The notes under the pieces were generated by a model, which saw only the letters and a program-made list of their open reading frames with translations, was not told where the DNA came from and made no database searches. Below, in pieces: positions 11,901-56,921 of a DNA stretch of 64,000 bases (the first letter of the stretch is position 1; every line of letters starts with the position of its first letter). Position numbers and translations under genes: made by a program. Where the stretch lies: contig VYCW01000041.1 of NCBI GenBank assembly GCA_009843735.1, positions 456 through 64,455 of the forward strand. The letters run 5' to 3'. Source of the stretch: Acidimicrobiaceae bacterium (lineage in GTDB: Bacteria > Actinomycetota > Acidimicrobiia > Acidimicrobiales > Aldehydirespiratoraceae).

Positions 11901-12611
11901 ATGAGCCTGGAGGGCAGGTCGGTCCTGATTCTCGGGGGGACGTCGGGGATGGGGCTGGAGACGGCTCTGGCGGCCCGCCGGGCCGGAGCCGACATCGCCA
12001 TCGTGGGACGCGACCCGGCCAAGGCCGAAAACGCCCGCCGGGCAATCGGCGAGGGCACGGTCTGCGGGGTGCTCGACGCTCGCGACACGGGCGCCCTGGC
12101 CACCTTCGCCGGCGGGCTCGACGCCATCGACCATGTGGTCTCGTTCACCGGTGACCAGCCCGCCGCCCCTCTCGCCGAGGCCGACCACGACATGTTCACC
12201 TCGGCGTTCGAGGCCCGGGTCTGGGCCGCCCGCAACGCTTGCGCCATTGCGGCACCGCTGATGCCGCCGGACGGCTCTTTCGTGTTCTGCTCGGGCCTGT
12301 CGGCGTCGAGGCCACGGCCCGGCCGTTCCGCCGGGGCGGTGGCCACCGCCGCGCTCGAGTCGTTCTGCCGAGCCATGGCCGTCGAGCTGGCGCCCCTGCG
12401 GGTCAACGCGATCTGCCCGGGTGCCTTCGGTACCGACGTCCTCCGGCGAGCCCTGGGCAGCGAGGCGACCATGGAGCGCTTGGCCTCAGCCATCCCGCTG
12501 GGCCGCATCGGTGATCCTGCCGAGATCGCTCACGCCGTCATGTTCCTGCTGACCAACACCTACACCACCGGCACGACGCTCCGGGTCGACGGCGGCTTCG
12601 CCCTCACATGA
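11901..12611 (+). CDS. SDR-family protein with altered active site
   Basis: 236 residues. The cofactor loop is intact (LGGTSGMG), and the C-terminal region (RVNAICPGAFGTDV, then TTGTTLRVDGGFALT) is typical of the family. The expected YxxxK pair is missing: the aligned stretch RSAGAVATAALESF has no Tyr or Lys, while the preceding FCSGLSAS keeps a Ser. The protein may bind NAD(P) without classical dehydrogenase chemistry, or use other residues. It overlaps the aldehyde dehydrogenase by four bases (ATGA), so the two are co-translated. Confidence 0.8.
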   Translation: MSLEGRSVLILGGTSGMGLETALAARRAGADIAIVGRDPAKAENARRAIGEGTVCGVLDARDTGALATFAGGLDAIDHVVSFTGDQPAAPLAEADHDMFTSAFEARVWAARNACAIAAPLMPPDGSFVFCSGLSASRPRPGRSAGAVATAALESFCRAMAVELAPLRVNAICPGAFGTDVLRRALGSEATMERLASAIPLGRIGDPAEIAHAVMFLLTNTYTTGTTLRVDGGFALT

Positions 12612-14092
12612 CCATGGCAGCCTCCGGACACGACCTCCTGAAGACGGTTCCCAGCGGGGATCTCCTCATCGGTGGTGAGCGGGTCCACGACACCACCGCC
12701 GGCGCCCGCGAGCAGCTCGATCCCTCCACCGGCGGCCGGCTGGCCACCGTGTCGCTGGCAGGGCCTTCCGAGATCGACACGGCCGTTCAGTCCGCCCGGG
12801 ACGCCCAGGAGGAGTGGCTCGGTCTGTCCCCGGCCCAGCGCCGGGACGTGATCCTGCGGTTCGCGCAGCTTCTGGACGACTGCCATGAGGAGATGTCGAT
12901 CCTGCGGTCCCTTGAGCTGGGCGCCCCCTTGAAGAAGCGGCGGGGAGCCAACATGGCCGTGGAGTACATGCGCTACTTCGCGGGCTGGGTCGACAAGCTC
13001 GAGGGCTCCACCATCCCGGTGCACCCGGGCCTAGCGCTGGACTACACGGTGCCTGAGCCCTACGGAACGGTCGCGGCCATCACCCCATGGAACGGGGGCG
13101 TCGTTTCGGCCGCCATGAAGGCCATCCCGGCTCTGGTGGCCGGCAACACCGTGGTGGTCAAGCCCGCGGAGTTGGCCGTGCTGTCGCTGCTGCGCTTCGG
13201 GGAGCTGGGCCTGGCTGCGGGCCTGCCGCCGGGAGCCTTGAACATCGTGCCCGGAGCGGCCGACGCGGGCCAGGCCCTGGTCACCCATCCCGGCGTCGAC
13301 AAGATCAGCTTCACCGGCGGGGGCGCCACCGCCCGCGAGGTGCTGCGGGGCGCGGCGACCAACCTCACGCCGGTCATCCTGGAACTGGGGGGCAAGTCGG
13401 CCAGCATCGTCTTCGAGGACGCCGACATCGACACCGCAGTCGCCACCACCGTCGGCCTGGCCCTAGCCACCATGAGCGGCCAGGGCTGCGTGCTGCCGAC
13501 CCGGCTGGTCGCCCAGGACACGGTCTACGACGCGGTGGAGCAACGGGTCGTGGAGGCCGCTTCGTCGCTGGTGGTGGGCCGCGCCTTCGACGAGGGCGTG
13601 CAGATCGGACCGGTGATCACCGAGGCGGCCTGCGAGCACATCATCGGCGAAGTGGAGGCGGCCGTGTCCCGGGGCGACGGACGCCTGCTAACCGGGGGCG
13701 CACGGCTGGGAGGCGATCTGGCCGACGGGTTCTTCGTGGAGCCGACCGTGTTCGGGAGCGTCGACAACTCCTCGCCCATCGCCCGCACCGAGATCTTCGG
13801 CCCGGTGCTGAGCCTGATCCGCTTCGGAGACGAGGCCGAGGCCCTGAGCATCGCCAACGACAGCCCCTACGGCCTCGGTGGCCTGGTGTTCACCCGCGAC
13901 GTCGCCCGGGCCCACCGGGTGGCCGGCCGGCTGCAGGCCGGGTCGGTCGGCGTCAACGCCTTTGCCCCGATGCCGGCCAGCGCTCCGTTCGGAGGCGTCA
14001 AGCAGAGCGGCTACGGGCGCGAGGGCGGGCTGGCCGGCGTGGAGGAGTTCCTGAGGCCCAAGAACGTCTACGTGGACCTGAGCGGACCGTGA
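12608..14092 (+). CDS. NAD(P)-dependent aldehyde dehydrogenase
   Basis: 494 residues, normal ALDH length. Seen: TPWNGGVVSAAMKAIPALVAGNTVVVKPAE (cofactor and structural core; positions about 160-190), FTGGG, the general base Glu259 in LELGGKS, and the nucleophile Cys294 in SGQGC. C-terminal PFGGVKQSGYGREGG is typical. It would oxidise an aldehyde to an acid, or to a CoA ester if acylating; the sequence does not decide. Co-translation with the upstream SDR and position after the TPP enzyme fit oxidation of an aldehyde released by that lyase (inference). Confidence 0.92.
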   Translation: MTMAASGHDLLKTVPSGDLLIGGERVHDTTAGAREQLDPSTGGRLATVSLAGPSEIDTAVQSARDAQEEWLGLSPAQRRDVILRFAQLLDDCHEEMSILRSLELGAPLKKRRGANMAVEYMRYFAGWVDKLEGSTIPVHPGLALDYTVPEPYGTVAAITPWNGGVVSAAMKAIPALVAGNTVVVKPAELAVLSLLRFGELGLAAGLPPGALNIVPGAADAGQALVTHPGVDKISFTGGGATAREVLRGAATNLTPVILELGGKSASIVFEDADIDTAVATTVGLALATMSGQGCVLPTRLVAQDTVYDAVEQRVVEAASSLVVGRAFDEGVQIGPVITEAACEHIIGEVEAAVSRGDGRLLTGGARLGGDLADGFFVEPTVFGSVDNSSPIARTEIFGPVLSLIRFGDEAEALSIANDSPYGLGGLVFTRDVARAHRVAGRLQAGSVGVNAFAPMPASAPFGGVKQSGYGREGGLAGVEEFLRPKNVYVDLSGP

Positions 14093-14113
14093 GCACCACA
14101 GGAGCGGCGGGCG

Positions 14114-15361
14114 GTGAGTGATCTGCTGAGCGGCGTGCGGGTGCTCGAGTCCGCGGTGCTGCTCAACGGCGACACTCTGGGCATGCTGCTCGGCGACCTG
14201 GGGGCCGACGTGATCAAGGTCGAGACCCCGCCGGCGGGCGACTATCTGCGCGACATCCTGGGGCAGATCGAGCCGCGGCACAGCCCGGCCCACCTGCAGG
14301 CCAACAAGAACAAGCGCAGCATCGCGCTCGACCTCGGCAACGATGGGGGTCGGGAGGTGCTGTGGGATCTCCTCGAGGGCGCCGATGTGTTCGTTGACGG
14401 CTTCACCGCGGGGGCCTCCGACCGTCTCGGCATCGGCTACGAGCAGCAGCGCAGCCGCAAGCCCGACATCGTCTACTGCCAGTACACCGGCTTCGGCTCG
14501 GTCGGCCCCTACGCTCGGATGCCCACCCACGGCCAGATGATGAACGCCGGCGCGGCCGCGGTGACGCTCACCACCGCCGACGATGGCTTCGTGCGACCGG
14601 CCGAGAACCGCGAGCTCATGTGGGGCACCTCCATCGGAGGCGACGGCACCGCGGCCGGCGCCGTGCATGCCGCGCTCCGTGTGGCTGCCGCGCTGTACCG
14701 GCGCCAGGTCACCGGCGAGGGCTGCTTCCTGGACGTGTCCGCAGCCGACGCGGTGGTCGCCCAAGGCTGGATCGGCGCGGTCTACGGCCTCAACTACGAC
14801 CGGATCACCGACCACACCGGTCTCAAGGACCCCGGCGCGGAGCCGCTGACCGGAGCCAAGTACCAGTACTACCGGACATCCGACGAGCGGTTCGTGCTGT
14901 TCTGCTGCATAGAGCCGAAGTTCTGGGAGCGCTTCTGCCGGCTCGTGGGACGCGACGACCTCATCGGCACGCAGCTGGAGCAGGGCCCCGTCGACTTCGC
15001 CCGGGACGCCGACGAGCTGCGCCGTGAGCTTCAGGCCGTCTTCGAGACGCGGACCCAGCGCGAGTGGGTGGACATGGCCATCCGCGAGCGGGTTCCGATC
15101 GGCCCGGCCCACCAGGGGGTGGCCAGCCTCAGGGACGACCCCCAGATGGCAGCCCGCCAGATCATGGTCGAGGGCCACCATCCGATCGCCGGATCCTTCA
15201 CCTATGTCGGCGAACCGGCGATCGTCGATGAGCAGCCCTACGCCGTGCCCCGTCCCGCTCCCGCGTTCGGCGCCCACACCACCGAGATCCTCACCGAGAT
15301 CGGCTACGACGAGTCCCGCATCGCGGAGCTGTTCGCCGAGGGCATCGTCGCCGGCGACTGA
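14114..15361 (+). CDS. CaiB/BaiF family CoA-transferase
   Basis: 415 residues, single-domain class III CoA-transferase. Opens with LLSGVRVLESAVLLNGDTLGMLLGDLGADVIKVETP. The segment FLDVSAADAVVAQ places an Asp at the position of the catalytic Asp of formyl-CoA transferase, unlike the double-domain protein at 171. GTG 14114 follows a GGAG ribosome binding site by about nine bases. Probably moves CoA between an acyl-CoA of this pathway and a free carboxylic acid; formyl-CoA from the nearby TPP enzyme is one possible donor (speculative). Confidence 0.9.
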   Translation: MSDLLSGVRVLESAVLLNGDTLGMLLGDLGADVIKVETPPAGDYLRDILGQIEPRHSPAHLQANKNKRSIALDLGNDGGREVLWDLLEGADVFVDGFTAGASDRLGIGYEQQRSRKPDIVYCQYTGFGSVGPYARMPTHGQMMNAGAAAVTLTTADDGFVRPAENRELMWGTSIGGDGTAAGAVHAALRVAAALYRRQVTGEGCFLDVSAADAVVAQGWIGAVYGLNYDRITDHTGLKDPGAEPLTGAKYQYYRTSDERFVLFCCIEPKFWERFCRLVGRDDLIGTQLEQGPVDFARDADELRRELQAVFETRTQREWVDMAIRERVPIGPAHQGVASLRDDPQMAARQIMVEGHHPIAGSFTYVGEPAIVDEQPYAVPRPAPAFGAHTTEILTEIGYDESRIAELFAEGIVAGD

Positions 15362-45114: not shown

Positions 45115-45903
45115 TCACTCGACCCGGCGGTCGCTCGAGTCGGCGCCGTTGCCGTGAACCGGAGCGGATCCTCCGGGGTAGAGACTCGGATGGCCAGGGC
45201 CCACGCCGGCAGATCGGAGAGCGTCGTCGGCCCGCCGGGCCCGGCTCCGGCCGGAGCGGCCCGCCGGCGGCCTCACCCGCCCCCGGGTGCTGCGGGCCAG
45301 ATCGGCGTCGTCCAGTGCCTCCTGCAACAGCTCGCGCAGTTGCTCCCAGCCCAGGGCGCTGCCCGCTCCGACGATCCGTCCGTCGACACCGTCGACAAGC
45401 GCGAAGTACGGCGAGCCCGGAACGTCGTAGTCCTGCCACGCGGCCGACGACAGCACGGCCTTCACGCCGGGCGGGACCAGCTCCGCCAGCGCTGACTCCG
45501 AGTCGTGGGCGGGGTCCTGGCCGACGATCACCAGGCGGGTGCCGTCCCCGGGCAGGTCGACTCCCGGCTCGGCGAACGCCTCCCAGAATCGCTTGCAGGT
45601 GCGGCACCCCGACGACAGGAACGCCAGCAGGGTGTGGTGCGGCACGCCGGTGACCGCAACCTTGGTGGGACCGCCCGCCGGCACGGTGCCGGCAATGTCG
45701 CGGGCCGTCTGATGCCCGCCTGGAGCCGCTTCGGTGGCGCGGTCCGGGACCGAGCCGGGCGGCAGATCGGATGCCTGGTCGTCGAGGCTGATCCCGGCCC
45801 GGTCGAGGGCCCGCAGGATCTCAGCGTGGGTCCTGAGCAGCCCGAACACGATCAGGGCGAGCACACCGACCGCGACGGCCAGCAGAACGACCACCACCGT
45901 CAT
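45115..45903 (-). CDS. MauD/TlpA-like membrane-anchored thioredoxin-fold protein
   Basis: 262 residues. An N-terminal membrane anchor (about 2-22) is followed by an extracytoplasmic thioredoxin-like domain with active-site SSGCRTCKRFW (CxxC near residue 100) and the cis-Pro strand DVPGSPYFALVDG. MauD-family proteins handle disulfides during maturation of the cysteine-rich methylamine dehydrogenase light chain; the gene upstream encodes just such a protein. The C-terminal 60 residues are Arg/Pro/Gly-rich and look unstructured. The start ATG overlaps the previous stop (ATGA). Confidence 0.85.
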   Translation of the reverse strand: MTVVVVLLAVAVGVLALIVFGLLRTHAEILRALDRAGISLDDQASDLPPGSVPDRATEAAPGGHQTARDIAGTVPAGGPTKVAVTGVPHHTLLAFLSSGCRTCKRFWEAFAEPGVDLPGDGTRLVIVGQDPAHDSESALAELVPPGVKAVLSSAAWQDYDVPGSPYFALVDGVDGRIVGAGSALGWEQLRELLQEALDDADLARSTRGRVRPPAGRSGRSRARRADDALRSAGVGPGHPSLYPGGSAPVHGNGADSSDRRVE

Positions 45904-47162
45904 CGGGCGACCGTCGGGTTGTCGGGCGTCGGAGCATCCTGCGGTGGCGTCTCCTGCGGTGGCGTCTCCTGCGGCGGGGTCTCCTGCAGCGGGGTCTCCG
46001 GCTCCTTCGGCGAGGGGTCCACGGTCCGGAGGTGGTAGCGGTGAAGCAGCAACGCGACGTCGGCGCGGCTGGCCGGCAGGTCAGCTCCGAAGCGGCCGAG
46101 GTCGGTCCACCAGACGATGTCCTTCTCGAGCCCCCAGGCCAGCGCGCCGCGGAACCACGCGTCCACACCCACATCGGAGAAGGCGATCCGGGCCTCAGCC
46201 CCGGGCTTACCAGCCAAGGCATGCAGGAACACGATCGATTGCGCCCGGCTCACATTGCTCAAGGGATCGAACTTGCGGGGCCCACGTCCGGCGGTGATCC
46301 CGTTCTGCACCATCCACGCCACCGCGTCGGCGTAGTACGCACCCGGGTCCACATCGTCGAATCCGTCGCTGTGCAGCGCAGGAGGCTTGCCCTCGTAGAG
46401 CCAGAGGAAGGTGGCGAATTGGGCCCGAGTCACCAGCTCGTCGGGACCGAACAGGTCGTCGGTGAAGCCGGCCGCAATGCCCTCGCTCGCCATCCACTCG
46501 ACAGCGCTGGCGTAGAGCGCCTTGGGGGGAATGTCGGTGAAGCCGTCGTGCAGGCAGGGTCGGTCGTGCCAGCGAGTGCTCTGGCTGTACAGCACCGGGG
46601 AGCTCGCGCAGGCCGGGTCCCACTTCCACGGGGGCACACAGGTGACGATGCGGCAATGGAGCGGACCCACACAAAGGTCCTGGTTGCACTGGCCGTAGCG
46701 GAAGCGGGTGCACTCCGACTTGCGGGTGTCGCAGCCGCCGTGGCACTTGCACACCGCCGATGTGCACGACCGGGCGCAGAGGCCGCCCGAGGAGCACCGG
46801 CAGCCCTCGTCGCAGGTGAAGTTGCAGTCGAGGTAGTAGCGGGGCTGGGGGCCGTTCAGGTCACAGAATCCCGAGCCGTCGGCCCTCCACCAGCCGGCGA
46901 CGATGGTCCCCGGCGGGCAGAGGTTCTCGCCGGTGATCTTGCAGCAAAACTCGCTCCAGTTGTCGCAGCACAGCGCTCCGGGACGGCACTCCCAGCCCTT
47001 GCACTGGATGATGGCGGCCTCGGCGGTGGTGGGCCGGATGGCGTAAGCGACCGGAGCGACCGCGACCGCGGTGGCGGCCATGGCCGACTTGCGCAGAAAG
47101 CCCCGGCGCCCGGCCCGGCGGTCCACCACCCGCGAGACCCGCTCGACCAGCGTGCGGCTCAC
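45900..47162 (-). CDS. Tat-exported MauA-like cysteine-rich protein with three SLH domains
   Basis: 420 residues. A twin-arginine signal (RRGFLRKSAMAATAVAVAP, from residue 19) precedes a segment (54-203) with 24 cysteines. Around C82, CPPGTIVAGWWRADGSGFC resembles the part of methylamine dehydrogenase light chain (MauA) that holds the first tryptophan of the TTQ cofactor; W91/W92 and W179/W181 are candidate partners, but no heavy chain is encoded. Three SLH domains follow (about 208-258, 268-318, 328-378), which should tether it to cell-wall polymer, then the QETPP tail. GTG 47162 overlaps the MauE-like stop, with GGGAG upstream. A wall-bound redox or disulfide-rich structural protein are both possible. 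Confidence 0.78.
   Translation of the reverse strand: MSRTLVERVSRVVDRRAGRRGFLRKSAMAATAVAVAPVAYAIRPTTAEAAIIQCKGWECRPGALCCDNWSEFCCKITGENLCPPGTIVAGWWRADGSGFCDLNGPQPRYYLDCNFTCDEGCRCSSGGLCARSCTSAVCKCHGGCDTRKSECTRFRYGQCNQDLCVGPLHCRIVTCVPPWKWDPACASSPVLYSQSTRWHDRPCLHDGFTDIPPKALYASAVEWMASEGIAAGFTDDLFGPDELVTRAQFATFLWLYEGKPPALHSDGFDDVDPGAYYADAVAWMVQNGITAGRGPRKFDPLSNVSRAQSIVFLHALAGKPGAEARIAFSDVGVDAWFRGALAWGLEKDIVWWTDLGRFGADLPASRADVALLLHRYHLRTVDPSPKEPETPLQETPPQETPPQETPPQDAPTPDNPTVAR
45937..45996. repeat. Four 15-bp tandem repeats encoding a Gln-Glu-Thr-Pro-Pro tail
   Basis: Units at 45937, 45952, 45967 and 45982 (consensus TCCTGCGGTGGCGTC on the plus strand) encode repeated QETPP in the C-terminal tail of the SLH protein. 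Repeat number is likely to vary between strains; a flexible, wall-spanning tail is the probable result. Confidence 0.85.
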
Positions 47163-47755
47163 GGTCTCCCGCTCCCGTTGTGAGACGCCGCCCCGACGGT
47201 GGTCGGCGGGGGCAGGGAGCGGAACAGGCCCCCCGCACCGGGGCCGGACGACCGGGCGGCCAGCGCCTCGGGCAGGGCTGTGAACGACACCAGGACGAGT
47301 CCGGCCAGCAGCACGATCACCACGGCCAACGCGACGCCGGTGGCGGGGCTCTCCCCCGCCGCCTGCACCAGCGCCGGAACGGGCGGGGAGGCTGAGCCGG
47401 CGGCGATGAACGACATCGCAGAAAGCGTCAGGTTGCCTGCGACATGGATCAGCGACGGCGGGGCGTCGAGGCGGCCGAAGCACCCGCAGGAGTCGGCGCC
47501 CGCGAGGACAGCTCGCAACACGATCAGGGCGAACGCCCCGTACAGCAGCCCCACGGTCCAGACCGCCAGGCCACCGGCGATCAGAGCGGCTGTCCCCGCG
47601 GCAGCCTCCACCGCGCCGATGAGCCGCACCACGGCGGGCCGGGTCCTCAAGCCGACCAGTCCGGAGAAGCCGTCCGCGGGACGGATCAGCTTGGCCGCGC
47701 CGGCGACCACCAGCAGCAGCGCGGCCGACGCGTGGAGCGCGGACACGACAGACAC
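47159..47755 (-). CDS. MauE/DoxX-like membrane protein
   Basis: 198 residues with four or five membrane segments (about 3-20, 42-60, 63-85, 100-118, 135-157). The motif GADSCGCFGRLD (about residue 87-98) is typical of MauE, which with MauD is needed to make disulfides in methylamine dehydrogenase light chain. GTG 47755 is used as start; the open frame continues upstream into the dioxygenase gene without conservation. Overlaps the MauA-like gene by four bases, so it is co-translated with its presumed substrate. Confidence 0.85.
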   Translation of the reverse strand: MSVVSALHASAALLLVVAGAAKLIRPADGFSGLVGLRTRPAVVRLIGAVEAAAGTAALIAGGLAVWTVGLLYGAFALIVLRAVLAGADSCGCFGRLDAPPSLIHVAGNLTLSAMSFIAAGSASPPVPALVQAAGESPATGVALAVVIVLLAGLVLVSFTALPEALAARSSGPGAGGLFRSLPPPTTVGAASHNGSGRP

Positions 47756-47819: not shown

Positions 47820-48659
47820 CTATATGCCGGGGGTCCGGTAGCCGTCGGACCGCCACAGGATCGGGAAGTGGTTCTCGTCCATCTCGTCGTCGGTGAGCCT
47901 CGCGTAGCGGGAGTAGATCGGCCCGTTGCCCTCACCAAAGCCGGCCCGGTCGAAGCGGGCCTCGCTGCTGGCGCAATGCAGCACGAGGGACCGGCGGTGC
48001 CGGCCGGAGCGGTTGGGGCCCGAGCCGTGCCACGCCCACCCGTGGTGGAACGCCCCGCCGCCCGCGCCCACCTCCACCGCCGCGATGTCGAGCTCGACAC
48101 CCAGACTCTGCGCCGCGGCCTCCACGGGGGCCCGGAAGTCGTCGGGGGCGTGGAACTGGCCCATCACATCGGCGCCGGCGGGCCAGCGGTGCGATCCCCT
48201 GGCCAGTTCCATGGTTCCGCCGGCCGCGGTGGTGTCATCGAGGGCGATCCAACACGAGAACATCTCCGTGGGCGTGTACCAGGCCAGGTAGGCGTTGTCG
48301 CGGTGGAATCCCAGCGAGCGGGCGCCGGGCGGCTTCCAGATCACGTTGTCCTGGGCGATCCGGGCGCCTGGCCAGCCGGCCAGCCGGGCCACGGCCTCGC
48401 CGAGGCGAACGTCGAGCACCACCGATGCGATCAGCCGGTCGGCCTTCCAGCCGTTGCAGATCTGGCGGGCGAGAGTCGGATCGCTGGTGCCCTCCTGCCA
48501 GTTGACCTCGTCGGGAGCGGTGCCGGTTTCGAAGTCGCCCCGGAACAGCCGTTCGAACCGTTCCTTCAGCGGATCGATCAGCTCGGTATCGATCAGCGAA
48601 TCGACCGTGACGAAGCCGTCGGCCTGGAAGGCGGCCACATCGGTACCGGAGAGCATCAT
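47820..48659 (-). CDS. Phytanoyl-CoA dioxygenase family Fe(II)/2-oxoglutarate oxygenase
   Basis: 279 residues. Facial-triad residues are visible: HxD in GFHRDNAYLAW and the distal His in HHGWAWHGSGPNRSGRHRRSL (with Arg for 2-oxoglutarate). Family members hydroxylate fatty acyl-CoAs or natural products and can halogenate or modify peptides. It is divergent from the RiPP precursor (83 bases between starts) and 64 bases upstream of the MauE-like gene, so it might belong to either neighbour. Start: TTG 48665 and ATGs 48659/48656 are in frame; ATG 48659 is reported, but the ribosome site is ambiguous. Confidence 0.88.
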   Translation of the reverse strand: MMLSGTDVAAFQADGFVTVDSLIDTELIDPLKERFERLFRGDFETGTAPDEVNWQEGTSDPTLARQICNGWKADRLIASVVLDVRLGEAVARLAGWPGARIAQDNVIWKPPGARSLGFHRDNAYLAWYTPTEMFSCWIALDDTTAAGGTMELARGSHRWPAGADVMGQFHAPDDFRAPVEAAAQSLGVELDIAAVEVGAGGGAFHHGWAWHGSGPNRSGRHRRSLVLHCASSEARFDRAGFGEGNGPIYSRYARLTDDEMDENHFPILWRSDGYRTPGI

Positions 48660-48694
48660 CTCCAAGCTAGAGGCCGAGGACCCCGGTCGGCGAC

Positions 48695-48700
48695 TAGGCT
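48695..48700 (+). promoter_or_regulatory. Possible -10 element for the RiPP precursor
   Basis: TAGGCT (TANNNT) lies 42 bases before the precursor ATG, giving a predicted start of transcription near 48706. An 18-codon open frame starting ATG 48705 would then be leaderless and would end inside the precursor gene. Weak evidence, no -35 box. Confidence 0.35.
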
Positions 48701-48742
48701 GATCATGTCTGATTCGTTCGCAGAAGAAGGAGAGGGTGAATT

Positions 48743-49018
48743 ATGGCAACTAGGACGATGAGCGAGATGAAGGCCCACATCACGGCCAAGGCCGTGGCGG
48801 ACGAGAGCTTTCGGGAGAACCTGATCGCCGACCCCAGGGCCGTGATCTCGGCCGAACTCGGCATCTCCATCCCGGAGGCCTTCAACATTCAGGTGCACGA
48901 GGACAACGACACCACCGCGCACTTGACCCTGCCGCCATCCGACCGGCTCACCGAGGCAGAGCTGGAGCGGGCTGCCGGCGGTGTCGATGTCAACTGGGAC
49001 ACCGTCAACATCTCATGA
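48743..49018 (+). CDS. NHLP-type RiPP precursor peptide
   Basis: 91 residues. The first 78 resemble nitrile-hydratase-alpha-like leader peptides: AKAVADESFRENLIADPRAV and AELGISIPEAFNIQVHEDND, then LTLPPSDRLTEAELERAAGG. The Gly-Gly at 79-80 is the expected cleavage site of the C39 peptidase encoded nearby. Only 11 residues follow (VDVNWDTVNIS), a very short core with Asp, Asn, Trp, Thr and Ser but no Cys, so it is not a lanthipeptide or Cys-derived azole. A strong ribosome site (AAGGAGAGG) precedes ATG 48743. The gene's stop overlaps that of the FAD oxidase on the other strand by six bases. Confidence 0.92.
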   Translation: MATRTMSEMKAHITAKAVADESFRENLIADPRAVISAELGISIPEAFNIQVHEDNDTTAHLTLPPSDRLTEAELERAAGGVDVNWDTVNIS

Positions 49019-50401
49019 CAGGGGCATCCCGCCGGGGTTGAGGATCCCGCGGGGGTCGAACTCCCGCTTCCATTCCACCATCCGCGGCCACCGGTCCCCG
49101 TAGTGGTCCTGCCATCGGGGGCGGTCGAAGTCCAGCCAGCCGGAGAGGTAGCGCTTGCCTCCGGCCGCGATGATGCGGCGGCTCTCGGCGGCCAGTACGG
49201 GCAGCACCTCATCGAGTTCTTCCGGCGGCGTCTCGATCAGGATGCCGTAGCCCATGATCATCTCGCCGGGCGGGTGCATGAATAGGGGGGACGTGAAGTG
49301 CTCGCAGAGGAAGGGGCCCAGCATTATCCGCGCCGTTCGCGCCACCGGGGCGGGAAGCTGGTCGGCCATCTCGGTGATGAAGCTCGGAAAGGCGCCCCAC
49401 GGCAGCACGCCCTCGGTGCACGGATGAGCCTGGCTCCAGTCGTCGAACCAGTTGATCCCGCCGGAGCCGGTCCCGGTGCCTGAGCCCAGCTGGGCCTCGT
49501 CGCCGAGCCGGCCGTACGACATGGAGCTGTTCTCGGCGCGGGTGACGAACGGCAGCGTGGAATAGTCCCGGAAGCCCGACAGCCGGGTGAAGCTGAGATC
49601 ATCGAGCAACTCGTCCTGGTCGGGCGGGACGTCGTCCCATTCCACTCCCAGGTAGACGGCAAAGACCCGGTAGGCGAACAGCTCGCCGGACAACACCTGC
49701 CACGGATCGCGGGCAACCGGCAGGCACCAGCCGTCGATGTACTGGAAGCGCTCGGTTCCGGAGATCAGCTCCAGGTCTCGCATCAGCACACGGATGTCCT
49801 CGTAGAGGAGGCTGTAGGTTCGCACCCTGGGCAACACTCTGCGCAATCGCATGCGGGCCTCGACGATGGCTCCGAACTGCCCCAGCCCGCAGCGGACGCA
49901 ATCGAACAGGCTGGCATGGCTCTCCGGCGAGCACCGCACGAGGCGGCCGTCGCCGGTCACAACCTCCAGTTCGGTCACGTTGTCGGTCTGAAGACCGTAG
50001 CGGTGGGAGGTGATGCTCAGGCCGGCCGTCGACAGGGTGCCGCCCACCGTCACACTCAGGTGGGTGGTGAGTGCCGGAGGTAGGAAGCCCTCGGCGTAGA
50101 CGCGGTGCACCAAGTCACGCCATCGCACACCGCCCTGCACGCGAATCTCGTCGCCCTCGATGTCGCCGATCCGGTCGAGTCCCTTCATGTCGACCAGAAC
50201 GCCGCCGTCGCTCAGAGACTGACCGCTCTGTGAATGGCCGCCGCCCCGGAAGGTCACCGGCATGCCTTCCCGGCTGCAGGCGCGGATGATCTCCGCCACG
50301 TCCTGCACCGAATGGGGGCGGGCGACGGCGCGGGGCCTCTTCATGAAGACCCGGCCAAAATCGCGGCTGGCCTCCTCCAGAGCCTCCTCGCCGGTCTCCA
50401 T
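49013..50401 (-). CDS. FAD-linked oxidase, cytokinin-dehydrogenase/BBE-like
   Basis: 462 residues. The PCMH-type FAD domain has VTFRGGGHSQSGQSLSDGGVLVDM, where His56 is placed for covalent 8-alpha FAD linkage, and CGLGQFGAIVEARMRLRR, as in cytokinin dehydrogenases; the C-terminus REFDPRGILNPG closes the substrate cap. Such flavoenzymes oxidise amines, alcohols or C-C bonds of small molecules or peptides. In a RiPP locus it is a likely tailoring oxidase of the precursor. ATG 50401 is chosen; sequence upstream is in the neighbouring gene. No signal peptide. Confidence 0.88.
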   Translation of the reverse strand: METGEEALEEASRDFGRVFMKRPRAVARPHSVQDVAEIIRACSREGMPVTFRGGGHSQSGQSLSDGGVLVDMKGLDRIGDIEGDEIRVQGGVRWRDLVHRVYAEGFLPPALTTHLSVTVGGTLSTAGLSITSHRYGLQTDNVTELEVVTGDGRLVRCSPESHASLFDCVRCGLGQFGAIVEARMRLRRVLPRVRTYSLLYEDIRVLMRDLELISGTERFQYIDGWCLPVARDPWQVLSGELFAYRVFAVYLGVEWDDVPPDQDELLDDLSFTRLSGFRDYSTLPFVTRAENSSMSYGRLGDEAQLGSGTGTGSGGINWFDDWSQAHPCTEGVLPWGAFPSFITEMADQLPAPVARTARIMLGPFLCEHFTSPLFMHPPGEMIMGYGILIETPPEELDEVLPVLAAESRRIIAAGGKRYLSGWLDFDRPRWQDHYGDRWPRMVEWKREFDPRGILNPGGMPLS

Positions 50402-50411
50402 ACCGAGTCGA

Positions 50412-51467
50412 TCAGTGCTTTCCACTCGACGTTCGCTGCACGTCCATGGCGGCATACCCCTTGACGCCGATTGCGCCCCCGTCGATGACCAGCTTGATGT
50501 GGTTGACGACCTGGCGGACCCGGTACACGGCATCGGCGCCGAAGAAGGTCTCGATGCGGGGCCACTCGCCCAGTGCTCCAGCCTTGGCCTGAAGGCACCA
50601 CCGCTTCGAGATCAGCCGCTCCATGAGCGTCCGCCACCCGACGGGGTCGGTCCGGTGCAGCTCGCCGGGGCGGAACAGTTCCAGGCCGAGGCGCGGAGAC
50701 ACGCCCTGGGAGGTCAGGTCGATGCTGAGGCCCGTTCGTGGCCTGACCAGCCCCTCCAGGTCCGACAGCGCGGAGGCCGCCAGCGACGGATCCCCGCACC
50801 ACCGGAGTCGCTCCAGGACCCCGGCGATGTCGGCCTGGCCGATCCCGTGGACTATCAGCCGGACCGCCCGCAGCGCCCTTGATGGCATCACACCGGCCTG
50901 CAGGACCAGCCCGGAGCCCTCGACAGCCGCGCACACCCGTTCGACCTGGCGGGCGTCAACCGCGCCCGGTTCCCAGCCGGCCGCCGACTCCAGCGCGGCC
51001 ACAAGCGCGGCCGGGTCGTCATGGAGCATCGCCCCCTGCCGGTCGGCGGTGCCCGAGGTCACTATGAAGACGCCCGGCGAGCCGTGCTCTCCGGGCGGAT
51101 GCGCAGCCAGGTCGTATTCCAGAATCACTCCCGCTCCGGTCCGGGAGAGCAACGAATGCGGGTCGCGGCCGTGCTTCCTCAGGAAGCGCCCCAGGTCCGG
51201 CCCCGCCAGCCCCGCCGCGACCTCGTCCGCCTGCCGCTCGTAGAAGGCGGCCAGTCTGGAGCCGGGCACCAGCAGCACCGAGAAGTCCGCGGCGGGTCTC
51301 GGATCGCACAGATCCATCTCGAAGCCGAAGCGGGTGTCGATGGCGTAGAAAGGCAGGCGCTTCGCCAGGGCCTGGACCCTCTCCCAGCCGGAGCCGTCGA
51401 TCAGCGGGTCCGGCAGCAGGACCCGCATCTCCTCCAGCAGGTCGCCGAGCGAGGAGTACGCCCCCAT
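50412..51467 (-). CDS. Unrecognised 351-residue protein in the RiPP locus
   Basis: 351 residues, soluble, no signal or membrane segment, and not matched to a family by eye. Features: SRTGAGVILEYDL (about 108-120), a central GLSIDLTSQGVSPRLGLELF (about 245-264), and a C-terminal VRQVVNHIKLVIDGGAIGVKGYAAM, with H-x-K-L-V and K-x-Y spacing that recalls C-terminal strands of some peptide-modifying enzymes. It is ten bases upstream of the FAD oxidase and transcribed with it. Position between precursor and exporters makes it a candidate modification or leader-recognition enzyme; function is unknown. Confidence 0.75.
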   Translation of the reverse strand: MGAYSSLGDLLEEMRVLLPDPLIDGSGWERVQALAKRLPFYAIDTRFGFEMDLCDPRPAADFSVLLVPGSRLAAFYERQADEVAAGLAGPDLGRFLRKHGRDPHSLLSRTGAGVILEYDLAAHPPGEHGSPGVFIVTSGTADRQGAMLHDDPAALVAALESAAGWEPGAVDARQVERVCAAVEGSGLVLQAGVMPSRALRAVRLIVHGIGQADIAGVLERLRWCGDPSLAASALSDLEGLVRPRTGLSIDLTSQGVSPRLGLELFRPGELHRTDPVGWRTLMERLISKRWCLQAKAGALGEWPRIETFFGADAVYRVRQVVNHIKLVIDGGAIGVKGYAAMDVQRTSSGKH

Positions 51468-51547
51468 TCACCGTCAGCGCCCGAGGCTTCGAGTCCCCGA
51501 TGAAGGCTCGACCCCGGCATTAGATCCCACACATCGACAGTACCAAC

Positions 51548-51787
51548 ATGCAGAAAATCTCACAGCAACCCCCTGCAAGTGTCATCATGGGCTCGTTGTT
51601 CCGTGACCGAATGTTCCGCGAGCGCGCGCTGCAGCGCCGGGCCCGACAGGAGCCGCTGGACGACCGGCTACAGGTCAGCGCGCCCCATGAATGGCTGATC
51701 GTCGCCGGACTTGTGGCGATGCTCCTAGTGCTGGCGGCCTTCGCCGTGTTCGGGGGCATGGATCTGCCGCAGCCCGCGAGCGGCTGA
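51548..51787 (+). CDS. Truncated NHLM secretion (HlyD-type) protein
   Basis: 79 residues. Sequence about 18-62 (LFRDRMFRERALQRRARQEP, then APHEWLIVAGLVAMLLVLAAF) matches the cytoplasmic start and membrane segment of NHLM bacteriocin-system secretion proteins, which are normally 300-400 residues and extend into a periplasmic hairpin. Here the frame ends nine residues after the membrane segment, and the TGATG with the exporter gene leaves no room for the rest. The stop is translationally coupled to the next gene, implying a retained function. Alternatively a decayed gene. ATG 51548; ATG 51587 is an alternative start. Confidence 0.75.
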   Translation: MQKISQQPPASVIMGSLFRDRMFRERALQRRARQEPLDDRLQVSAPHEWLIVAGLVAMLLVLAAFAVFGGMDLPQPASG

Positions 51788-53985
51788 TGCGGCTGCTCTC
51801 GCTGGCCGGCCCGGCCCGGAGGCGCCGGGCCCGCACGCCGCTCATGCTCCAGCAGGAGGAGACCGAGTGCGGCGCGGTCGCCCTGGGCATCGTGCTGGCC
51901 CACTTCGGGCGCTGGGCCCGGATGGAGGAGCTGCGGGAGGCGTGCGCAGTCAACCGGGACGGCTGCGACGCCGCCGACATCAGCCGGGCCGCCCGGCAGT
52001 ACGGGCTCGAGCCCCAGGGATGGCGCAAGGAGCCGGAGCAGCTCCGGGATATGGAGATGCCGCTCATCGTCTTCTGGGAGTTCAACCACTTCCTCGTGCT
52101 GGAGGGTTTCCGCGGAACGGGCTACGTGGTGAACGACCCGGCCAACGGCCACCGCCTGATCGACGGCGAGGAGTTCGATGAGGGCTTCACCGGCGTCGTC
52201 CTGAGCTTCCGGCGCGGCGCCGGCTTCCGTCCGGGCGGCGCCCGGCCCGGGGTATTGACCCGTCTCTGGCCGTGGCTCCGGGAGGTCACCGGGCCCCTGC
52301 TCTTCGCGCTGTGCTGCGGGCTGCTGCTGTCGCTCCCCCTCCTCGCCCTGCCGCTGCTGCTGAGCCTCTTCGTGGACCAGGTGCTGAGCGGGGAGGACAG
52401 GGGCTGGGCCGCGGCCATCGTCGGCGGGTTGGCGGCGTCGGGCGCGCTGGTGTACCTGCTCACCTGGCTCCGGCAGCGCTGTCTCAGGCTGCTGGCGATC
52501 CGGCTGTCGGTCGACCATGCCGACCGCTTCGTCAGGCGCCTCCTGCGCCTTCAGATGCGATTCTTCAGCCAACGCTTCTCCGGTGACCTGGCCGCCCGCG
52601 TCCAGTTGATCGACGAGATCGCCGTGGTGGCGACCACCCAGTTCGTCGGAGTCGCCATAGAGCTGATCGCCGGCGCCGTCTTCCTAGCGGCCATGTTCTT
52701 CTACGACGCCGCGCTGGCCGCCGTAGTCGCCGCCCTGGGCCTGATCAGCGCGGCGACGATGCGCCTGATCACCCGGTCCCGCGTCGGCGACAACCGCCGC
52801 CTGCAGCGCGAGCAGGGCAAGCTCCAGGGCATCGGCATGTACGGGCTGAGCAGCATCGAGACCATCCAGTCGGTGTCAGGCGAGAAGGACTTCTTCGGCC
52901 AATGGACCGGCTACCAGGCACGGGAGCTGCTGGCCCGGCAGAGCTTCGCCGAGCGGGGGCATGTGATCGCCTCGCTGCCGCAACTGTTCCTCGTCCTCAG
53001 CAACGCCGCGGTCCTGGGCATCGGCGGTTGGCGGGTGATGCAGGGCGACATGACCCTGGGCGTGTTGATGGGCTTCTATGTCCTGGCCGCGAACTTCCTT
53101 CTGCCCATCGGGCGCCTAGTCCAGTTCTCGGACCTGTTCCAGATCCTCGAAGCCAACCTTCAGCGCCTCGAGGACGTGCTGCACGCGCCCGAGGACAGGC
53201 TCTTCCAACAGGGCCCCGACCAGACCACCCGCCGGGACGGGGGCCTCCACCGGCAGCTGCGCCTCGGCGGCCATCTCGAGCTGCGCACCGTGAGGTTCGG
53301 CTACAAGGCGAACCGCGAGCCGCTGCTCGACGACTTCAGCCTTACCATCGAGCCCGGCCAGCGAGTTGCCGTCGTCGGCCCCACCGGGTCGGGGAAGTCC
53401 ACGCTGGCGCTCCTGGTAGCGGGCATCCACCAGCCGTGGTCCGGCGAGATCCTGCTGGACGGCCACCCCCGGGCCGACGTGCCCCGGGCCCTGATGACCA
53501 ACTCCGTCTCGATGGTCGACCAGCGCATCTTCCTGTTCGCGGCCTCGGTCCGCGAGAACCTCACCATGTGGAACCCGGAGATCCCCGACCAGTCAGTGGT
53601 GACGGCCGCGAAGGATGCCGCCATCCACGAGGAGATCCTGGCCAGGGCCTACGGCTACGACTCGATGGTCGACGAGGGCGGGCGCAACTTCAGCGGCGGC
53701 CAGAGACAGCGGCTTGAGATCGCCCGCGCTCTGGTCGGCGATCCGTCGCTTCTCATTCTCGACGAGGCCACCAGCGCGCTGGACCCGGCGACCGAGCAGC
53801 GGATCGACGAGTCGCTGCGCCGGCGGGGCTGCAGCTGCCTCATCGTGGCCCACCGGCTGAGCACGATACGGGACTGCGACCTGATCGTTGTGCTGGACAA
53901 GGGAACCGAGGTGCAGCGCGGCACCCACCAGGAGCTGATGGCCGATCCCGAAGGCCTCTACCGCCGGCTGATGGAGGTGAAGTGA
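51787..53985 (+). CDS. NHLM-type peptidase/ABC exporter (C39 peptidase fused)
   Basis: 732 residues. The C39 peptidase domain has QQEETECG with Cys28, His101 (NHFLVLEG) and Asp117, a complete triad that cuts after Gly-Gly leaders. A six-helix membrane domain spans about 165-450. The ATPase has Walker A GPTGSGKS (about 530), signature FSGGQRQRLEIARA (about 635) and Walker B LLILDEAT (about 658). It would remove the leader and export the mature peptide. ATG 51787 overlaps the stop of the stub gene, and the end overlaps the second exporter. Strong match to the NHLM peptidase-transporter family. Confidence 0.95.
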   Translation: MRLLSLAGPARRRRARTPLMLQQEETECGAVALGIVLAHFGRWARMEELREACAVNRDGCDAADISRAARQYGLEPQGWRKEPEQLRDMEMPLIVFWEFNHFLVLEGFRGTGYVVNDPANGHRLIDGEEFDEGFTGVVLSFRRGAGFRPGGARPGVLTRLWPWLREVTGPLLFALCCGLLLSLPLLALPLLLSLFVDQVLSGEDRGWAAAIVGGLAASGALVYLLTWLRQRCLRLLAIRLSVDHADRFVRRLLRLQMRFFSQRFSGDLAARVQLIDEIAVVATTQFVGVAIELIAGAVFLAAMFFYDAALAAVVAALGLISAATMRLITRSRVGDNRRLQREQGKLQGIGMYGLSSIETIQSVSGEKDFFGQWTGYQARELLARQSFAERGHVIASLPQLFLVLSNAAVLGIGGWRVMQGDMTLGVLMGFYVLAANFLLPIGRLVQFSDLFQILEANLQRLEDVLHAPEDRLFQQGPDQTTRRDGGLHRQLRLGGHLELRTVRFGYKANREPLLDDFSLTIEPGQRVAVVGPTGSGKSTLALLVAGIHQPWSGEILLDGHPRADVPRALMTNSVSMVDQRIFLFAASVRENLTMWNPEIPDQSVVTAAKDAAIHEEILARAYGYDSMVDEGGRNFSGGQRQRLEIARALVGDPSLLILDEATSALDPATEQRIDESLRRRGCSCLIVAHRLSTIRDCDLIVVLDKGTEVQRGTHQELMADPEGLYRRLMEVK

Positions 53986-56921
53986 GCACGGCCGGCCAGA
54001 AGACGCCGGACACGCCTCGGGCGGATCCGCTCCGGGAGCTGGCGCTGGCCAGCGGCGACCGGTTCGCCGGCGGCGGCAACCGTCCCATCCGGCTCTCGGA
54101 CCCGGATGCACTGTGGTTCGTCGTCCGCGGCTCGGTGGACGTGTTCGCCACCCAGCTCACCGATGGCGGGCTTCCGACGGACTTCAAGCACATGCTGCGG
54201 GCCGGCCCGGGGCGGTTGATCTTCCCCCTGATGGAGGAGGAGGGCTCGAGCGTGCTGGTGGCCAAGGGGCTGCCCGAGTCCGAGCTGCGGCGGATCTCGC
54301 TCGCGGACCTCACCGGCGTAGTGCTCCACGCCCAGATTGCCGAGCAGGTGGACGCCTGGGTCGGCGAGCTGTCCGAGTCCATCGTCCGGGATGTCACCTA
54401 CCGCCCGCGCGTCGACCAGAGCCTCGTGCCGGGCGTCACCGATGAGGCTGCCCACGGTACGGCGACCTCAGCGCAGCACGGCGTGGTGTGGGCATCCAGC
54501 CCCGAGGGCGACATCCAGTACCTGGGTACCGAGGATCTGGACCAGTCCGGCTCTGGTCTGGTCCCCATCACCCCAGCAAGCTGGATCGTCCAGAGCCGGA
54601 CGGCCCCGGTGATGGGCGTCAGCACCGCGGACCTGAGCCTCGACGGGCGGCTGGCCGGCGTGTTGATGGAGTTCAACCGTCTGGCGATGAGGGCCGACCG
54701 GACCAACCGCACCCTGCTACTGGCCGACGTGTCCAATCTGCAGACCGCAAGCGCCCGGCACCGCCAGAGGAGCGAGGAGCAGGCTCGCCGGGACCTCTTC
54801 ACCGTGCTGGTCGGGGACCCCCTCCCAACTGCGGAAGGCCCGGTGCTGTTGCGCGCCCTCAAACGGATCGGTCGCCATGAGGGCATCGGTTTCCAGGCCC
54901 CGGCGCGGCCGCGGCGACGCGATTCCGGCAGCGGAGACGGGGAGGCGACACTGGAGGAAATTCTCGATGCTTCGGGCATACGCGCCCGGCGCATCGCCCT
55001 CAGGGACCGCCATCGCTGGTGGCTCGGCGACAGCGGGGCAATGCTCGCCTCGCGCCGCCAAGACGGCGCGCCGGTGGCCCTCATCCCCGGGCGCCTCGGG
55101 CGCTACCGGATGTTCGATCCCCAGTCGGGCAGTTCCATGCCCGTCAACTTCCGGCGTGCCGCCACCCTGGGCCCGCTCGCCCATTTCTTCTACCGCCCGT
55201 TCCCTGACGGCCATTCGAGCAACGCCGCCCTGCTGCGGGCGATGGCCTTCAACCGCGCCCACCGGGACCTGGCCCGCTTGGTGGGGGCGGGAGTCCTGGC
55301 CGGACTGGCCATGCTGGCGCCGGCCGTGCTGCTGGGCGTGGCCGTGAGCCGGGTGCTGCCTGCCGGGGACGGGCGGACGCTGGCGATGGTGGCGCTCGCC
55401 CTGGCGCTGGTGGGCGTGACCCTCGCGCTGTTGGAGATGCTGAAGGGGACCGCCCTGATGCGGCTGGAGGGCCGCGCCGCGGCACGGATCGGCGCGGCGC
55501 TCTGGGACCGCCTGCTGGCGCTGCCCCCGTCCTTCTTCCGGCGTTTCACCGTCGGCGATCTGGGAAGCCGCGCCATGGGGTTCCAGCGGCTGCGGGACCA
55601 GGTGGCGGGCGTGGTCGCCGGGTCCGTGCTGTCGCTGGTGTTCCTTCTCCCGACCTTCGCCCTGCTGCTCTACTACGACCCCGTGCTGGGCGGCGCCGCC
55701 CTCGCAATGGGCGCGATCTCGCTGGGCGTGACCCTCTGGCTCGGCCTGCGGCAGCTGCCGCACCATCGGCGGCTCCTGGCCGCCATGCGCCGGCTGACGG
55801 CGGTGCTGCTCCAGCAGATAAGCGGCGTGGCCAAACTGCGGGTCAGCGGAGCGGAGGGCTCGGCCTACGCGGTGTGGGCCGCCAACTATCGGGAACAGAA
55901 GCAGACCGAGATGCGGCTGGGGGCGCTCAACGAGCACCTGATCGCATTCACCTCCGCGGCCCCCCTCCTGGCTGTGGCCGGCTTGCTCGCAGTCGCCGCG
56001 CCCCGCAGCGAGCAGGGGCTGCCGGTCGCGAGCTTCCTGGCGACATACGCCGCCTTCATGGTCTTCTACGGCGCGGTGGCCCAGGTCGGCTTCTCCTTCT
56101 CGGCCGTCGCCGCCATCCTGCCCGCCGTTGAACAGGCCGATCCCATCCTCTCCGAGCGCCCCCGGAGGGTGCTCGCCGATGCGGCGGCCCTGGAGTTGCA
56201 GGGCGAGCTGCGCATCGACCAGGTGACGTTCCGGTACGCCGAGGACGGCCCCCTGATCCTCCAGGACGTGTCTCTCCAGGCCCGTCCCGGCGAGTTCATC
56301 GCGGTCGTCGGGGAGTCGGGCTCCGGCAAGAGCACCCTGCTGCGCCTGGCGCTGGGCCTGGAGACACCGCAGTCGGGCGCGGTCTACTACGACAACCACG
56401 ACCTGGAGCGGCTGAACCGCCAGACGGTGCGCGACGGGGTGGGCACCGTGGTGCAGGACGCCTCTCTCCGCCCGCAGACCGTGCTGGACAACATCATCGG
56501 GACCGGCGACGACCTGACGCTGGAGGACGCCTGGCGGGCCGCCCGGCTGGCCTCAGTGGACCAGGACATTCTGGATATGCCGATGGGTATGTACACCGTG
56601 ACCGCCGAGGGCTCGTCGGCACTGTCCGGCGGGCAGGTGCAGCGAATCATGCTGGCCGCCGCCCTGGTCAGGAGTCCCAGCATGCTTGTCCTGGACGAGG
56701 CCACCAACTGGCTCGACAACGCGACCCAGTCCAAGGTGATGCAGGAGATAGAGAAGCTCTCGGTAACACGCATAGTGAGCGCCCACCGCCTGTCCACCAT
56801 CCGCCGAGCCGACAGGATCTACGTGCTCCAGAAGGGCCGGGTGGTCCAGCAGGGCAGCTTCGACGAACTAATGGCGCAGGAGGGCGCGTTCCAGGACATG
56901 GCCCGCCGGCAGATGGCCTGA
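53982..56921 (+). CDS. NHLM-type ABC exporter, second subunit
   Basis: 979 residues, the family's usual length. The N-terminal 420 residues are a soluble region lacking a C39 Cys/His pair; its start (LWFVVRGSVDVFATQL) resembles a cyclic-nucleotide-binding fold. The membrane domain spans about 425-715 and the ATPase has Walker A GESGSGKSTLL (about 775), signature LSGGQVQRIMLAAA (about 881) and Walker B MLVLDEATNWLD (about 903). In NHLM systems this protein accompanies the peptidase-ABC protein, probably as a heterodimer. GTG 53982 overlaps the upstream stop (GTGA). Ends 3 bases before the convergent amidohydrolase. Confidence 0.95.
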   Translation: MSTAGQKTPDTPRADPLRELALASGDRFAGGGNRPIRLSDPDALWFVVRGSVDVFATQLTDGGLPTDFKHMLRAGPGRLIFPLMEEEGSSVLVAKGLPESELRRISLADLTGVVLHAQIAEQVDAWVGELSESIVRDVTYRPRVDQSLVPGVTDEAAHGTATSAQHGVVWASSPEGDIQYLGTEDLDQSGSGLVPITPASWIVQSRTAPVMGVSTADLSLDGRLAGVLMEFNRLAMRADRTNRTLLLADVSNLQTASARHRQRSEEQARRDLFTVLVGDPLPTAEGPVLLRALKRIGRHEGIGFQAPARPRRRDSGSGDGEATLEEILDASGIRARRIALRDRHRWWLGDSGAMLASRRQDGAPVALIPGRLGRYRMFDPQSGSSMPVNFRRAATLGPLAHFFYRPFPDGHSSNAALLRAMAFNRAHRDLARLVGAGVLAGLAMLAPAVLLGVAVSRVLPAGDGRTLAMVALALALVGVTLALLEMLKGTALMRLEGRAAARIGAALWDRLLALPPSFFRRFTVGDLGSRAMGFQRLRDQVAGVVAGSVLSLVFLLPTFALLLYYDPVLGGAALAMGAISLGVTLWLGLRQLPHHRRLLAAMRRLTAVLLQQISGVAKLRVSGAEGSAYAVWAANYREQKQTEMRLGALNEHLIAFTSAAPLLAVAGLLAVAAPRSEQGLPVASFLATYAAFMVFYGAVAQVGFSFSAVAAILPAVEQADPILSERPRRVLADAAALELQGELRIDQVTFRYAEDGPLILQDVSLQARPGEFIAVVGESGSGKSTLLRLALGLETPQSGAVYYDNHDLERLNRQTVRDGVGTVVQDASLRPQTVLDNIIGTGDDLTLEDAWRAARLASVDQDILDMPMGMYTVTAEGSSALSGGQVQRIMLAAALVRSPSMLVLDEATNWLDNATQSKVMQEIEKLSVTRIVSAHRLSTIRRADRIYVLQKGRVVQQGSFDELMAQEGAFQDMARRQMA

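Follow-up and report, generated by a model that had tools for sequence, protein, structure and literature searches.

What is the role of a protein of 351 amino acids (aa), matched by no family model, that is encoded among the precursor and exporter genes of a ribosomally synthesized and post-translationally modified peptide (RiPP)? The question is raised by a stretch of 64,000 nucleotides (the window) from contig VYCW01000041.1 of an Acidimicrobiaceae bacterium (assembly GCA_009843735.1), which contains a six-gene proteusin cluster at positions 48743-56921. The cluster encodes a precursor with a nitrile-hydratase-like leader (NHLP), a flavin adenine dinucleotide (FAD)-linked oxidase, the 351-aa protein, a 79-aa adaptor stub, and two NHLM ATP-binding cassette exporters (ABC1 and ABC2). 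An earlier reading of the DNA letters (the sequence-only reading) had named these genes, except for the stub, which it missed, together with a divergent Fe/2-oxoglutarate oxygenase, and all that it named are present where it placed them. The cluster is of a known kind, the proteusins, with an enzyme of predicted prenyltransferase fold as the new element.

Predicted fold of the 351-aa protein

The 351-aa protein has no NCBIfam match and matches no Pfam family at E ≤ 10, prenyltransferase models such as PF11991 and PF11468 included. When 11 of its homologues are compared with Pfam, the sole match is CBM26 at E 0.08, and PDB sequence searches with the protein and its alignment return chance matches only. 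Homologues were gathered from the window's order, from a genome collection and from a Latescibacterota order, and in 19 of 19 of them the strand residues E50, D61, R203, H323, K325, K336 and Y338 are invariant. These include a C-terminal HxK...KxY motif, from which a prenyltransferase of the ABBA/DMATS type was suspected prior to any structure model.

The AlphaFold2 model of the window protein (predicted local distance difference test, pLDDT, 89.2; predicted template modeling score, pTM, 0.89) consists of strand pairs that alternate with helix pairs. All of its Foldseek matches in the PDB at E < 0.001 are aromatic prenyltransferases (probability 1.00, best E 1e-5), including DMATS1, IptA, NphB, AmbP1 and CloQ, and VIA-align gives Z 17.2 to MpnD over 300 residues and Z 16.9 to CymD. 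A second AlphaFold model (pLDDT 84), of a homologue 28% identical to the window protein and belonging to group B of the related loci described below, matches PriB (Foldseek E 5e-7) and MpnD (VIA Z 17.6). The ABBA/DMATS matches cover the full length in both models, which are predictions built on one family alignment. The ABBA (PT-barrel) prenyltransferase fold is well supported by this modeling, and the invariant polar residues would fit, as expected, an active site within the barrel; R203, K325, K336 and Y338 are placed where ABBA enzymes hold the diphosphate (register against NphB set by eye).

Related loci and the srp clusters

Strong homologues of the 351-aa protein adjoin NHLP and NHLM genes in Acidimicrobiia, Latescibacterota, SAR202 and Gemmatimonadota. 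In the window's order, NHLP is adjacent in 7/7 genomes with a strong homologue, and among 397 genomes only one further genome has an NHLP match over the cut-off (Fisher p 3e-14 for the co-occurrence). The NHLP gene of genome G253, on a 9-kb contig, has no homologue of the other cluster proteins within the surrounding 2.3 kb and was set aside. A weak homologue of the 351-aa protein in genome G295 (E 5e-4, locus L020) does not lie beside an NHLM set and was treated as a chance match.

The loci fall into three groups, in all of which the homologue occurs with NHLP and NHLM transporter genes within the fetched stretch (ABC1 falls outside it in L045 and L048). Group A comprises the window and L021-L026 (L013-L015 are the same places) and is without YcaO. 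Its cores are VDVNWDTVNIS, VDVNWDTVNMS, GWRDELEDAYNSQ, GQYLWE, IDYEPNIS, IDYDPNIS, VDVYPV, HHYGWQH and (G)VEMYRF, and its partner enzymes differ, with a flavoenzyme in the window, L021 and L022 and a methyltransferase in L023 and L024. Group B (L027-L031, overlapped by L016-L019) encodes YcaO and a flavoenzyme, and its cores (LCCGG, LCCCG, LSCCL and LSCSG) have no aromatic residue. Group C (Latescibacterota L043-L050) encodes YcaO and has the core LCCCW, known from SrpE (PMC10858898), and a Trp-halogenase gene lies beside the cluster in 5/5 genomes checked. From the YcaO, the SrpE core and the adjoining halogenase gene, we infer that the group C loci are srp clusters. The homologue is held by 11 of 16 genomes of one Latescibacterota order, mostly in srp-type clusters.

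The window cluster resembles the srp clusters of sponges (SrpE/SrpC/SrpI; PMC10858898, PMC10286304) in its NHLP precursor, NHLM exporters, very short core and L(X)4L motif, and the homologues in srp-type loci are 28-30% identical to the window protein. Unlike these, it lacks YcaO, a nearby halogenase and core Cys, and has a flavoenzyme related to cytokinin dehydrogenase; it is a YcaO-free, halogenase-free relative of the srp type. No LanM, YcaO or radical SAM enzyme is present among the open reading frames and family matches of the locus (LanM and radical SAM enzymes were not searched genome-wide). YcaO is also absent in trans, from the whole source genome (a metagenome-assembled genome, MAG, about 85% complete). 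There is no Trp halogenase near the cluster, and the genome has one weak PF04820 match, on another contig. The tailoring set is thus as unusual as the sequence-only reading had held. Its candidate new RiPP class is better described as a new branch of proteusin chemistry, given the distant homologues in srp-type YcaO clusters. The possibility it had raised against novelty, that a known synthetase is a regular part of homologous loci, holds for groups B and C through YcaO but not for the window's own group A.

The window ABC1 shares 80.6% identity with its counterpart in Latescibacterota L021 but 75-78% with the one in a same-genus genome, a comparison that points to transfer of the cluster between phyla. 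Several homologous contigs come from MAGs with names that suggest marine sponges (Palauibacter rhopaloidicola; SAR202 bin22), and the MPMM, RHO and SB bins are sponge-derived. Of the RiPP clusters found in sponge microbiomes, those of proteusins belong to the widely shared ones (PMC9426513).

Some related loci have features of their own. L023 encodes a divergent third NHLP-like protein (8914-9273) that ends in EFPSNDQRQDSENLSNWLSSIG, is without a clear Gly-Gly and adjoins two ordinary precursors. In L026 (SAR202 bin22), two frames (9920-11054) each hold a part of the prenyltransferase homologue, through decay or assembly error; ABC1 is split as well, and the precursors are retained. Group C loci encode a 437-aa protein (L043 5755-7068, with equivalents in L044-L050) in which an N-terminal NHLP/nitrile-hydratase-like domain is followed by a region similar to squalene-hopene cyclase repeats (PF13243, up to E 2e-6), so that a leader-like domain is fused to what may be a terpene-cyclase-like toroid. 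The srp-type clusters also contain a protein of about 800 aa (L043 7115-9550 and equivalents) with an N-terminal fatty-acid-desaturase domain.

Core peptide, proposed product and alternatives

The window precursor matches TIGR03793 at 69.3 bits (cut-off 50.9; E 1.9e-19) and is preceded by a Shine-Dalgarno-like AAGGAG. Its 80-aa leader ends in ERAAGG and bears an L(X)4L motif (RLTEAEL); in an alignment with eight homologues, L69, L74 and G80 are invariant. A second NHLP match in the genome (C20) was rejected as a nitrile hydratase alpha subunit, which adjoins a beta-like subunit. The predicted core has 11 residues, with a single Trp and no Cys. Between the window and L021, 6 of the 11 core codons differ, 6 changes being synonymous and 0 nonsynonymous, so that the peptide is identical, while the 77 comparable leader codons carry 17 synonymous and 28 nonsynonymous changes (Fisher p 0.006). 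This contrast indicates purifying selection on the core. Hypervariable cores are frequent in NHLP precursors (PMC2887384), and the conservation seen here therefore argues that the exact peptide sequence matters.

The flavoenzyme matches FAD_binding_4 (E 8e-37) and Cytokin-bind (E 3e-9), and its closest PDB match is a cytokinin oxidase (E 3.6e-49). With the cytokinin dehydrogenase/vanillyl-alcohol oxidase (VAO) family it shares the FAD_binding_4 domain, the C-terminal motif and the GGGHS FAD motif. Where the plant cytokinin dehydrogenases have the catalytic Asp of their WTDYL motif, the window protein has an aligned Thr. Its gene adjoins that of the 351-aa protein in L021 and L022. L021 alone also encodes a 652-aa NAD/FAD-binding protein (12601-14559; weak Pyr_redox_2 match), with the flavoenzyme on one side and three NHLP precursors on the other.

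We think it probable, with some reserve, that the 351-aa protein is a leader-guided prenyltransferase acting on an aromatic core residue, which the flavoenzyme then oxidizes before cleavage and export. The prenyltransferase would read the folded nitrile-hydratase-like leader, including L(X)4L, and prenylate the core, its single Trp being the likeliest site, and the flavoenzyme would then oxidize the modified residue by dehydrogenation or oxidative cyclization. The C39 peptidase of ABC1 is expected to cut after the Gly-Gly, and ABC1 and ABC2 would export a short linear peptide. In favor of an aromatic acceptor, Trp or Tyr is present in 11/11 group A cores and in 0 of 843 group A leader residues. 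The identity of precursor and exporters, the predicted fold, the gene co-occurrence and the core conservation come from the data; the scheme adds by inference the catalytic activity, the residue that is modified, the donor of the prenyl group, what the oxidase does, the sequence of the steps and the biological function. Oxidative change of a prenylated aromatic is known from the cannabinoid synthases, a parallel by analogy only. Leader-dependent prenylation of Trp by an ABBA enzyme is known from MppC, which acts on a precursor with a Nif11-type leader and L(X)4L (PMC12715784), and NHLP leaders are read by SrpI (PMC10858898). The mpp cluster resembles the window in the ABBA-type fold, the long structured leader with L(X)4L and the core Trp. 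It differs in its Nif11-type leader and in forming a lanthionine ring first, whereas the window has an NHLP leader, a linear Cys-free core and an enzyme that Pfam does not recognize.

Several observations weigh against prenyl transfer to an aromatic core residue. The window protein shares with the DMATS/indole prenyltransferases and NphB/CloQ (MpnD, CymD, PriB, IptA, NphB) the PT-barrel, a full-length structural match and the last-strand KxY, but differs in its RiPP-precursor context and in having no significant sequence similarity to them (hhalign against four bacterial DMATS proteins gives E 0.44, with only the last-strand KxY stretch aligned). The diphosphate-binding lysine of strand 4 (K119 of NphB, KxY of DMATS) is replaced by PG, as judged by eye, and R259 on strand 8 is Arg in group A only. 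The flavoenzyme is absent from L023 and L024, was not found in L026, and is therefore not obligatory. The group A leaders share ancestry, so that their lack of Trp and Tyr is not independent evidence, and a p-value for their contrast with the cores should not be taken as independent. Since the group B cores have no aromatic residue though the homologue is present, either the acceptor there must differ or the role of the protein is not transfer.

The latter case, in which the protein keeps the ABBA fold and assists the flavoenzyme, YcaO or brominase as a leader- or core-binding partner, as a scaffold, or as a catalyst of some different reaction, would fit the presence of the homologue in every cluster type regardless of core sequence, as well as the non-conserved strand-4 lysine and the variable R259. 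We consider it unlikely, as the seven strand residues invariant in 19 homologues resemble a working active site. An active prenyltransferase with another acceptor (Ser, Thr or Asn side chains, Cys or an azoline in group B, the new core N-terminus, or a small molecule) would explain the absence of Trp, Tyr and His from the group B cores, but seems quite improbable in view of the Trp or Tyr in every group A core and in the srp core LCCCW. The window cluster might also be a decaying srp cluster, which has lost YcaO and the brominase and makes no notable product; the HlyD adaptor reduced to a 79-aa stub and the genome without YcaO are in line with this. However, the remaining frames are intact, the core is the same across phyla with synonymous changes only, the ABC1 identity to Latescibacterota implies that the cluster moves and is maintained, and the HlyD stub recurs in the otherwise intact L027, L028 and L030, so that decay is very hard to credit.

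Prenylation of the core stays the favored reading. A wider proposal, for and against which we see about equal grounds, is that sponge-associated bacteria from several phyla share a lineage of prenylated proteusins, defined by an unrecognized prenyltransferase family that sequence models do not see; the srp type would belong to this lineage, with a prenyl group on its product in addition to bromine, and the YcaO-free branch would make a linear, prenylated and oxidized 11-mer, identical across phyla. Other proteusins (polytheonamides, landornamides, nostatin A, MprE peptides) share the NHLP leader, and their tailoring is by epimerase, LanM, YcaO or methyltransferase; the nostatin A paper mentions no prenyl modification. 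A literature search found no report of prenylated NHLP peptides or of a prenyltransferase-fold enzyme in NHLP clusters; the original srp paper (JACS 2021) lay outside this search, and the gene is possibly named otherwise there. A fold and a likely reaction for a co-travelling gene provide a testable mass shift for finding proteusin products. They would also bring prenylation into proteusin chemistry and provide an NHLP-leader-guided prenyltransferase, useful for peptide lipidation. Pipelines based on sequence models would overlook this enzyme family.

Cluster organization, exporters and neighboring genes

The stub, ABC1 and ABC2 genes form a unit divergent from that of the 351-aa protein and FAD-linked oxidase genes (Table 1). 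The precursor is transcribed toward the oxidase gene, with a six-base overlap of both frames, and the oxidase starts at TTG 50407 or ATG 50401.

Table 1. Features of the proteusin cluster and its flanking genes (window positions)
Feature	Position	Strand	Basis or remark
PhyH oxygenase	47820-48665	-	Pfam E 5e-23; outside the cluster
NHLP (proteusin) precursor, 91 aa	48743-49018	+	TIGR03793 above cut-off
Predicted core peptide VDVNWDTVNIS	48983-49015	+	After double glycine; same in Latescibacterota L021
FAD-linked oxidase, VAO/cytokinin-dehydrogenase type	49013-50407	-	FAD_binding_4, Cytokin-bind, PDB match
351-aa homologue of prenyltransferases, predicted ABBA fold (PT-barrel)	50412-51467	-	AlphaFold2, Foldseek, VIA
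NHLM HlyD adaptor stub, 79 aa	51548-51787	+	Identity to L022 HlyD frame
NHLM ABC1: C39 peptidase, permease, ATPase	51787-53985	+	TIGR03796, Peptidase_C39
NHLM ABC2 permease/ATPase partner	53982-56921	+	TIGR03797
Cys-rich protein	45900-47200	-	Upstream of the cluster

ABC1 matches TIGR03796 at 898 bits (cut-off 853) and Peptidase_C39 at E 3.5e-30, and ABC2 matches TIGR03797 at 720 bits (cut-off 709). With the precursor, all three NHLP and NHLM models thus score above their curated cut-offs, in agreement with the earlier assignment of an NHLP/NHLM RiPP locus in which one exporter has a C39 peptidase. The longest frame of ABC1 begins further upstream; the likely start is ATG 51787, which overlaps the preceding stop (TGATG).

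The 79-aa stub retains only the N-terminal cytoplasmic tail and transmembrane helix of the NHLM HlyD adaptor, which is accessory to export and not to the precursor family. Across 49 aa it shares 69% identity with the HlyD frame of L022, a locus from the same genus, and it scores 12.6 bits against TIGR03794 (cut-off 156.2; E 0.045), below the level of a full adaptor. Full-length HlyD (297-303 aa) is present in L021 and L024. The adaptor has been shortened repeatedly (303, 297, about 259, 180, about 69 and 64 aa; in the window and in L022, L025, L027, L028, L029 and L030), and the shortened forms keep only the cytoplasmic tail and transmembrane helix, at times also the final residues. As the reduction occurs even in Gemmatimonadota, the membrane stub may be the part that the exporter needs.

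The Fe/2-oxoglutarate (PhyH) oxygenase, which the sequence-only reading had counted in the tailoring set, is a real gene. It is rejected as a cluster member and is probably a chance neighbor, because no related locus carries PhyH. Also upstream of the cluster, a Cys-rich protein is encoded with a twin-arginine-like signal and S-layer-homology-like repeats.

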